Source of the DNA: Caldisericia bacterium
GTDB lineage: Bacteria; Caldisericota; Caldisericia; B22-G15
Direction of reading: 5' to 3'
Assembly (NCBI GenBank): GCA_030018355.1
Contig: JASEFN010000001.1
Coordinates: 248,001 to 312,000 of the forward strand
Length of the DNA stretch: 64,000 nucleotides
The translations under genes were made by a program, and so were the position numbers. Within the stretch, counting starts at the first letter, position 1. Every line of letters begins with the position of its first letter. The notes beneath the pieces were generated by a model. That model saw only the letters and a list, made by a program, of their open reading frames with translations, was not told the DNA's origin and ran no database searches. Shown piece after piece: positions 60,418-64,000 of the stretch.

Positions 60418-60502
60418 ATATTCCTCCTTTTAATTATAAACTTCAAATTCTCTTTTTTGTTTCAAAAATTTAGAGAGTAGATAAATTTATTTTGTTCCAT
60501 TG

Positions 60503-60508
60503 TATAAT
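60503..60508 (+). promoter_or_regulatory. -10 box of the helicase gene, leaderless type
   Basis: TATAAT followed by six bases (TGTAAT) and the ATG at 60515. No -35 match and no Shine-Dalgarno sequence is visible. Transcription should begin at or next to the initiation codon. Confidence 0.5.
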
Positions 60509-60514
60509 TGTAAT

Positions 60515-62062
60515 ATGAGTACTGAAATTGAGAAAAAAATTTTAAAAGGTTTTATTACTGATAGATTTACAATATCAAAATCATTATCAGAAGGTTTTAA
60601 AGTAGATTATTTTGAAGATCCAAAAACAATTACTATTCTAAATGCTGTACTTGACATTTATGAAGGAAGAGGTGAAGTAGATTATATTGATTTTCAAACG
60701 GTTAAAAGACATCTTGAGAAAAAGGGTGTTTTTGATGATGAAATAAAAAGAACTTTGTTAGAAATTGAAAATTTAGAGACTCCAACTCTCGCAATGATTT
60801 TATCTTATATAGATATTTTAAGAATAAAAAATGGAGAAAGAAGATTAATTAACATTTCAAATGAAATAAAAGATTTCGTTGAAAGAAGAGGACCTCATAA
60901 ACTCGAAGATATTGCTACATTTGCAGTTACAATGTCTGAAGAACTTCAAAAAATTGCTCTAGAAAGATTGCATAAAAAGTTGGTTCCATCAGAAAATATA
61001 ATTAAGAACATAGTAAGGGATGTTTTTGAGAGAAGAAAATATCATGGCTTTTCAATTGAACCATTTACTTCATTAAATAAATCTCTCCTTGGTTTAAGAC
61101 CAGGTTTTTATTATGCAATGGCTGGTGCTCCAAGAAGAGGTAAAACGAATTTTTTACTTCATTTAGCAGTCAATATAATTGCGAACGAGAGAGTGCCTGT
61201 TCTTTATTATTCATGGGAACAAACTTCAAGAATTCTAAATTTGAGAATTCTTTCTCAAGAATCTGGCCTTAATCCAGTTAAAATAATTTCTGGTGAATTA
61301 AATGAAGAAGAGTTTAAAAAGTTTGAAAACGCTTATAAAAAACTCCAAGATATATTTTCATTTCTATATATAATTGAAGGAAGTAGCAATGATACTTTAG
61401 AGAAAATTGAGGCGCATGCTTACAATGTAATGCAGAGTCATAGATGTGATACTGTAGTGATTTTTCTTGATTATATTCAAAAAATACCTGTTGAATCAAA
61501 AGGATACATAACATTAGAAGAAAAAGTTGATGAAGTTTCGGGTAAGATAGCTATGCTTTCTCTTTCTTTAAAATCTCCAATAGTTGCAATTTCTGCTCTG
61601 GATAAAGAAGGATGCAAATTAGATGAAGAGGGGATTGAAAGACCTACTATGTTTCATTCTACTGGTGGTGGAGATATCGAATATGATTCAGATGTCGCTA
61701 TGGTTCTTGTTAAAAATCATAAAGAGACAAATGAATTAAAAGAAAAACTCATAAATCTTGTAAAAAACGGACAACTTCTGCCAGAAGATATGCCAAATAT
61801 TGATATAATTGACCTTTACATTGATAAAAATAGAGATGCTCCTGAAGGTACATCAAATGTTATTCAATATCTATTTTTTATTGATTCAAACAAATTTGTT
61901 GAGATTGGATATAAAGACCCAACTGAAAAATATACTTATGCAAAAATTAGTGAAATTGTTGAGAGATTAAGAAGAGAGGGATATTTAAAATTAATAACAA
62001 AGGATGAACAGATAAAAGAGAAAACAGATAAACCAAAATTTTCTGGTTTTGAACCAATATAA
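60515..62062 (+). CDS. DnaB-like replicative helicase family protein
   Basis: A protein of 515 residues from ATG 60515; an in-frame TTG at 60500 lies across the -10 box and is rejected. Residues ~1-110 resemble the DnaB N-terminal domain (LKGFITDRFT, ILNAVLDIYEGRGEVDYIDFQTVKRHL). The RecA-like C-terminal domain has a Walker A AGAPRRGKTNFLLHLA (~203), then YYSWEQTSRILNLRILSQESG, a Walker B-like VVIFLDYIQK (~318), and a GGGDIEYDSDVAMVL block (~385). The Walker A differs from the usual GRPSMGKT. It is either the main replicative helicase of a divergent lineage or a paralogue. serS follows after 14 bases. Confidence 0.75.
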   Translation: MSTEIEKKILKGFITDRFTISKSLSEGFKVDYFEDPKTITILNAVLDIYEGRGEVDYIDFQTVKRHLEKKGVFDDEIKRTLLEIENLETPTLAMILSYIDILRIKNGERRLINISNEIKDFVERRGPHKLEDIATFAVTMSEELQKIALERLHKKLVPSENIIKNIVRDVFERRKYHGFSIEPFTSLNKSLLGLRPGFYYAMAGAPRRGKTNFLLHLAVNIIANERVPVLYYSWEQTSRILNLRILSQESGLNPVKIISGELNEEEFKKFENAYKKLQDIFSFLYIIEGSSNDTLEKIEAHAYNVMQSHRCDTVVIFLDYIQKIPVESKGYITLEEKVDEVSGKIAMLSLSLKSPIVAISALDKEGCKLDEEGIERPTMFHSTGGGDIEYDSDVAMVLVKNHKETNELKEKLINLVKNGQLLPEDMPNIDIIDLYIDKNRDAPEGTSNVIQYLFFIDSNKFVEIGYKDPTEKYTYAKISEIVERLRREGYLKLITKDEQIKEKTDKPKFSGFEPI

Positions 62063-62067
62063 GTTAA

Positions 62068-63354
<1,287 letters not shown>

Positions 63355-63363
63355 GAGGTATTT

Positions 63364-63519
63364 ATGATAAAGGTTATTAAGAATAAACCTTTTTTGAAAA
63401 AGAAAAATTTAAATTGTAGAGAATGTGCAACTCCTTGTAAATCTGCTTGTAAAACATCAATGACTGTTGGAAATCAAATTTGTGAAAAAGATAGAGAAGA
63501 TAGAAAGTTTGTCTTTTAA
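63364..63519 (+). CDS. SCIFF-type ranthipeptide precursor with five cysteines
   Basis: A 51-residue peptide with a strong AGGAGG site, nine bases after serS. The core NCRECATPCKSACKTS, then MTVGNQICEK, matches the SCIFF family (six cysteines in forty-five residues). Cysteines are at 18, 21, 25, 29 and 40; the fifth family cysteine is replaced by Met33. Cys29 and Thr34 are kept, the spacing of the Cys-Thr thioether described for a clostridial SCIFF. The next gene is the radical SAM maturase, which overlaps this one. The role of SCIFF peptides is unknown. The gene is short and easily missed. Confidence 0.88.
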   Translation: MIKVIKNKPFLKKKNLNCRECATPCKSACKTSMTVGNQICEKDREDRKFVF

Positions 63520-64000
63520 ACCTCCTTTATTTCACAAATTTTCTTTTTTAAACAGATTTTTTGTTTTTTTTCCAATTACGGGTAGTCTTATTGAAGTTGA
63601 TAAAGATTTTTATTTTAATTTAAATGAAAATTCTTTAATAGATGAGCCATTTTTAAATGAAGAGAAAAAAATATGGGAAAAATATGATGTAAAATTTAAT
63701 CCACCAAAATACTTAAAATCTTTATGTCTTCTTATCTCTCAAACCTGTAATATGAAATGTGATTATTGCTTTGTTAATGATGGAACTTTTGGAGATAATG
63801 AGAGTTTGATGGATGAAAATGTAAGTTTAAAAGCAGTTGACTTTTTAATTGAGAATTCAAAAACGAAACATATTGAAATTGATTTTTTTGGTGGTGAACC
63901 ACTAATAAATTGGAAAGTTGTAAGAAAAACAATTGAATATGGTGGTAAAAGGAGCAAAGAGTATGGAAAAATTTTAAGATTTTCTTTAACAACAAATGGA
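63482..64000 (+). CDS. SCIFF peptide radical SAM maturase, N-terminal part
   Basis: An open frame runs to the window edge. It has no ATG before the cluster motif; GTG 63482 or TTG 63509 are the possible starts, both overlapping the SCIFF gene by 11-38 bases, so translation is probably coupled. The radical SAM motif is SQTCNMKCDYCF (CxxxCxxC), followed by DFFGGEPLINWKVV and the AdoMet-binding stretch, which match the SCIFF maturases (CteB-like, SPASM type). The N-terminal ~75 residues (PITGSLIEVDKDFYFNL) are the peptide-recognition-like region. It should form Cys-to-Thr thioether links in the preceding peptide. The C-terminal Fe-S domain lies outside the window. Confidence 0.88.
   Translation, partial: MKKIEKIESLSFKPPLFHKFSFLNRFFVFFPITGSLIEVDKDFYFNLNENSLIDEPFLNEEKKIWEKYDVKFNPPKYLKSLCLLISQTCNMKCDYCFVNDGTFGDNESLMDENVSLKAVDFLIENSKTKHIEIDFFGGEPLINWKVVRKTIEYGGKRSKEYGKILRFSLTTNG

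Follow-up and report, generated by a model that had tools for sequence, protein, structure and literature searches.

SCIFF peptides take their name from six cysteines, and the closest described relatives of the peptide studied here are CteA (thermocellin) of Clostridium thermocellum and Tte1186a of Caldanaerobacter. All three share a CxxCxxxCxxxCKTxxT core, a leader, an adjacent radical SAM/SPASM maturase and the assignment to TIGR03973. Unlike CteA and Tte1186a, our peptide carries methionine in place of the fifth cysteine, has an 11-residue tail with an aromatic end and is encoded by a gene that overlaps the maturase gene. Among characterized maturases CteB (structures 5WGG and 5WHY, TIGR03974) is the nearest counterpart. 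The enzyme encoded at our locus shares with it the predicted full-length fold, the radical SAM motif and the SPASM cysteines, whereas the two proteins are about 36-37% identical, the N-terminal 70-80 residues have diverged and our enzyme scores below the curated cut-off of the family. Maturases of the PapB/freyrasin and QhpD types are likewise radical SAM/SPASM enzymes that form non-alpha thioethers, but their substrates differ. Regarding function, clostridial SCIFFs are reported to have a regulatory role: according to the summary in PMC8102284, disruption of a SCIFF system in C. beijerinckii led to reduced expression of sporulation genes and increased expression of agr. Our literature search, which reached few subscription journals, returned no paper describing SCIFFs from Caldisericota, Coprothermobacterota or Dictyoglomota and none describing SCIFFs that lack the donor cysteine; no paper on CteA variants at Cys36 was found either.

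In the 64,000 nucleotides of Caldisericia DNA analyzed in our study, referred to as the window, the SCIFF (ScfA) precursor gene is located at positions 63364..63519 and is preceded by a Shine-Dalgarno-like AGGAGGT at 63353..63359. These and all further features of peptide and maturase lie on the forward strand. The gene encodes 51 residues, MIKVIKNKPFLKKKNLNCRECATPCKSACKTSMTVGNQICEKDREDRKFVF, with five cysteines (Cys18, 21, 25, 29 and 40). Residues 1-17 (MIKVIKNKPFLKKKNLN, 63364..63414) are the putative leader, as judged from the alignment with relatives and by analogy to CteA. In a protein search the peptide reached 51.1 bits against TIGR03973, which is above the curated cut-off of 50 and agrees with the preliminary description of a 51-residue SCIFF with methionine at position 33; searching from DNA gave 50.2 bits. 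The TIGR03973 search revealed no second copy in the genome, 63364-63519 being the sole match. The name of this family refers to six cysteines in the C-terminal 45 residues, of which the window peptide has five. Nevertheless, the literal count does not define the SCIFF family, as 82 GTDB records depart from it alike. Besides, a SCIFF precursor is expected beside its maturase, and TIGR03974 was the best family of the overlapping open reading frame.

The maturase gene (scfB) was located by its open reading frame, by profiles and by a structural model. It covers 63467..64000 and continues to the window-equivalent position 64771 (L032:6772), which gives 434 amino acids from the first TTG (L032:5468-6772). 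In-frame starts are found at 63467 (TTG), 63482 (GTG) and 63509 (TTG), all within the peptide gene, and no start codon is found between the stop of the peptide and the point where the conserved maturase sequence begins. Therefore, the maturase begins inside the 3' end of the peptide gene, as had been proposed from the sequence of the window. Relative to the peptide stop codon, the TTG at -50 and the GTG at -35 are kept throughout the four genomes of the genus, a conservation that is at least partly forced by the codons of the peptide, and two of the four also have the TTG at -8. At four other loci (L021, L037, L013 and L038) the likely maturase start is an ATG, GTG or CTG at -10, which is made from the tryptophan codon of the tail, so that two frames share the same bases. 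In L042 no ATG, GTG or TTG fits the maturase; a CTG is found at -10 from the peptide stop in L042 and L044.

The best family of the maturase was TIGR03974 with 392.1 bits over profile positions 81-449. This is below the curated cut-off of 425 because the first 70-80 residues do not match the profile, and strictly the protein is best regarded as a TIGR03974-like enzyme. As regards the PapB/freyrasin and QhpD types, it also stayed below the cut-off of NF047865 (299 bits, cut-off 340). Moreover, PF04055 (Radical_SAM) and PF13186 (SPASM) were detected, and all 12 cysteines that are conserved among SCIFF maturases are present. They comprise the SPASM cysteines and the CxxxCxxC motif that binds the radical SAM cluster (CNMKCDYC, 63746..63769). 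An AlphaFold model based on an alignment of 52 sequences reached a mean pLDDT of 92.8. Its best solved matches were the CteB structures 5WHY and 5WGG, with TM scores of 0.82-0.86 over the whole length, and the match of the whole model to 5WGG comprised 453 alignment columns. In this model residues 9-58, the candidate region for an RRE leader-binding domain, form three strands and two helices.

The methionine codon of the window peptide (ATG, 63460..63462) is located in the column of the fifth cysteine, as the cores of the peptide and its relatives align without gaps. Each of the four genomes of the genus (G000-G003) carries the same methionine, so that a base error is excluded. Thus both objections that could have been raised against the assignment, a sequencing error and a misalignment, were ruled out.

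The missing fifth cysteine is widespread. A pattern scan of GTDB returned 82 records with a residue other than cysteine in column 33 (A18 I18 L16 S14 V14 M2), which is a lower bound since Ser (AGY), Arg and Gly codons escape the pattern. These include Moorella, Caloramator, Sarcina ventriculi, Clostridium mediterraneense and C. tarantellae, and likewise Desulfovirgula, Tepidibacillus, Vulcanibacillus, Cryosericum, Caldisericum, Armatimonadetes bins and Coprothermobacter. The preliminary description had inferred that Cys33 may not be essential, and the six residues found in its place support this. Met33 as a unique loss was ruled out by the same scan, and the idea of a singular natural variant had to be given up: the count of methionine proposed there as a check came to two of the 82, and in a tree of 107 maturases column 33 showed at least 8 switches between cysteine and other residues and 15 state changes. 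The tree was quick, unrooted and based on a sample enriched for variants, so that gain and loss of Cys33 are not distinguished; an earlier tree, which lacked the cysteine members from deep Bacillota, gave only 4 switches. Within the Clostridia 246 of 391 evenly drawn genomes matched the SCIFF core with Thr34, and among the matches listed column 33 was cysteine in all except the centre genome, which had been picked as a variant. Of 250 genomes from the phylum to which Moorella belongs 192 matched, and among the matches listed the cases without cysteine were nine with isoleucine and six with leucine. The claim that SCIFFs are nearly invariant therefore holds for column 33 among the listed matches within Clostridia and fails for the family as a whole. 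In Caldisericia the residue varies by family, with Met in the genus of the window, Ser or Cys in f2, Val in f3, Asn in f4 and Cys in f5 and f6. The fifth cysteine is thus the most easily replaced cysteine of the SCIFFs, and the window is one of many cases across many lineages.

The SCIFFs of Cryosericum (Ser33), Caldisericaceae (Val33) and f4 (Asn33 together with Ala29) belong to the same class as the window peptide and share its kind of tail and the adjacent maturase. However, they differ from it in column 33, and f4 additionally lacks the published donor cysteine. In the window peptide the 11-residue tail (63484..63516) ends with F-V-F. In all examined Caldisericia SCIFFs as well as in G098, 11 (rarely 12) residues follow the last cysteine and end with [WFY][IVT][WFL]. 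Other SCIFFs mostly stop 2-7 residues past the last cysteine; the 11-residue class seen in this group stems from duplicate Caldisericia records of the GTDB scan. A tail of fixed length with an aromatic or hydrophobic end triplet is absent from the clostridial SCIFFs and specific to this class. Since it is also kept in f2 and f3, whose maturase frames do not reach into it, overlap of the genes alone does not account for the tail. G098 (locus L013), a genome from another phylum, also has Met33 together with a W-T-W tail, which suggests a transfer of a Caldisericia-type SCIFF between phyla. Directly upstream of the peptide gene the window encodes a DnaB-helicase-like protein (60500-62062) and a seryl-tRNA synthetase (62077-63354), an order that is kept in the genus and not in the other families compared. 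We also considered a conserved partner gene beyond the maturase. The order serS-scfA-scfB-preT-preA holds within the genus but fails in the other families compared, and the candidate was rejected.

The acceptor of the crosslink is a matter of debate. In vitro, a Cys32-Thr37 crosslink was mapped in Tte1186a and CteA, whereas Hudson 2019 found Cys32-Thr34 with an S-C-gamma bond in CteA co-expressed in E. coli, and two reviews call this discrepancy unresolved (PMC8172795, PMC8326336). In the numbering of the window peptide CteA Cys32, Thr34 and Thr37 correspond to Cys29, Thr31 and Thr34. The preliminary description had assumed that Cys29-Thr34 is retained as the crosslink pair and that the window peptide is a rare variant in which the crosslink is uncoupled from whatever the other cysteines do. 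This is in line with the in vitro mapping and with the presence of Thr34 (63463..63465) in the window peptide and in every Caldisericia member found. Nevertheless, 69 of the 391 Clostridia genomes have Gly (Ala in one case) instead of Thr at position 34, usually beside a maturase. We inspected ten of these loci (L213-L222). Eight of them encode an adjacent, complete or nearly full-length maturase that is 56-60% identical to CteB; L216 contains a maturase fragment, and at L217 no maturase was detected within the stretch examined. Glycine has no side-chain carbon for a thioether bond, so with Gly at position 34 the acceptor must be elsewhere, and Thr31 is the fixed candidate. No replacement of Thr31 was found in the 391 genomes when scanning for codons with C, G or T as the first base (Thr34 kept as Thr) or for codons with A as the first and A, G or T as the second base (any residue 34). 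Given the Cys32-Thr34 mapping in E. coli and the wide spread of residues other than Cys33, we consider the assumption of a Cys29-Thr34 bond in a rare variant unlikely, and Cys29-Thr34 is doubtful as the crosslink pair. Cys29-Lys30-Thr31 (63448..63456) would instead contain both the donor, by homology with CteA, and the preferred acceptor.

The donor has been replaced as well. Using the family model to search relatives, we identified family f4 in five Caldisericia genomes of two genera, with the peptide CRECQTPCKSAAKTANT. In f4 Cys29 is replaced by Ala and Cys33 by Asn, while Cys18, 21, 25 and 40 and both threonines are kept. The loci lacking the published donor cysteine (SAAKTANT) are L041, L042, L043, L044 and L049. 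All 12 conserved cysteines were present in the three of three f4 maturases checked, and dN/dS between near relatives was 0.07-0.09. Similar results were obtained in Clostridia. In 44 genomes that matched no pattern the family model detected a SCIFF in six, three of which (L234-L236) read CQSASKTSCS, with Ser29, Ser34 and an extra cysteine after Cys40. Their maturases adjoin the peptide and are 56-62% identical to CteB. Two unrelated lineages have thus lost the published donor Cys29 while their maturases are intact, and the Cys29-Thr31 pair is therefore not universal.

On the other hand, no peptide retrieved with the family model lacks Cys25 or Thr31. In an alignment of 16 members that covers the extremes and includes the Ala29 form, both are among the invariant core positions, together with Ala28, Lys30 and Asn37. 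Cys25 and Thr31 might thus be the universal pair, with Cys25 as a second or as the true in vivo donor and Cys29 as replaceable, which would fit the intact maturases next to Ala29 in five Caldisericia genomes and Ser29 in three Clostridia genomes. However, the biochemistry of Tte1186a and CteA maps Cys32, the equivalent of Cys29. The constancy of Cys25 is unbiased for the model-found set only, as the DNA patterns demanded this residue, and the maturase may just be permissive as to the donor. A universal Cys25-Thr31 pair is therefore distinctly unlikely. Cys25 and Thr31 are nevertheless the only cysteine and threonine kept in all lineages examined, and in at least some of these the maturase might make a crosslink other than the one mapped in vitro, such as Cys25-Thr31, an idea that we regard as rather unlikely.

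The remaining cysteines vary in another way. In the SCIFFs of Coprothermobacter and Dictyoglomota Cys25 and Cys29 are the only cysteines left, and columns 21 and 40 are occupied by Phe/Phe in Coprothermobacter and Tyr/Tyr in Dictyoglomota. This joint loss, seen in two lineages only, suggests that Cys21 and Cys40 are partners. The maturases of both groups have Ser at the position of CteB Cys339. The two-cysteine loci comprise L050, L059, L070 and L131 in the Coprothermobacter group and L071 and L072 in Dictyoglomota. Tandem SCIFF cores were also observed, both in one precursor in L215 (G127), and G285 and G447 contain two core matches about 130 bases apart. The parts of the core thus seem to change separately: Cys29-Lys-Thr31 at Cys29 only and in two lineages, column 33 freely, Thr34 in a large clostridial group, and Cys18, 21 and 40 together. 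The separation of the crosslink from the other cysteines, which had been expected from the window variant, is provided instead by the Ala29, Ser29 and two-cysteine lineages, which distinguish the cysteine roles more than the window does.

Taken together, we favour a Caldisericota SCIFF ranthipeptide system in which a leader-bound maturase forms a thioether between Cys29 and a threonine, column 33 is outside the chemistry and four cysteines act together, and we hold this to be probable, with some reserve. The putative N-terminal RRE-like domain of the maturase would bind the leader, and the enzyme would then link Cys29 through its sulfur to a threonine, Thr31 being likelier than Thr34. Column 33 would tolerate small or hydrophobic residues, here Met. 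The spare Cys18, 21, 25 and 40 probably act jointly, either in two disulfides or in one metal site, and Cys21 would be the partner of Cys40. Methionine can bind soft metals, and in a cysteine-rich peptide whose Met33 is kept in four genomes of the genus it could stand in for Cys33 as a metal ligand. This is highly improbable, as the column contains Ala, Ile, Leu, Val, Ser or Asn elsewhere, most of which cannot be such ligands.

Peptide and maturase genes are under purifying selection. Within the genus dN/dS was 0.06-0.13 for the peptide, where computable, and 0.16-0.30 for the maturase; against the nearest relative (G003) the values were 0.09 and 0.18, respectively, and are rough as synonymous sites are well diverged. 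In relatives that have no SCIFF the maturase is missing too. A decaying gene pair that loses cysteines by drift, for which the maturase score under the family cut-off and the relatives without the system could be quoted, is hardly credible in view of these ratios, the fixation of Met in the genus and the presence of all catalytic cysteines.

SCIFFs are very common RiPPs in Clostridia, but there is no agreement yet on the structure and purpose of the product or on the crosslink acceptor. For these questions the variation surrounding the window is more informative than the window itself. The replacements at Cys29, Cys33, Thr34 and Cys18/21/40 occur beside intact maturases and represent matched pairs of substrate and enzyme. 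With such natural pairs it can be decided which residues take part in the crosslink and which have another role.
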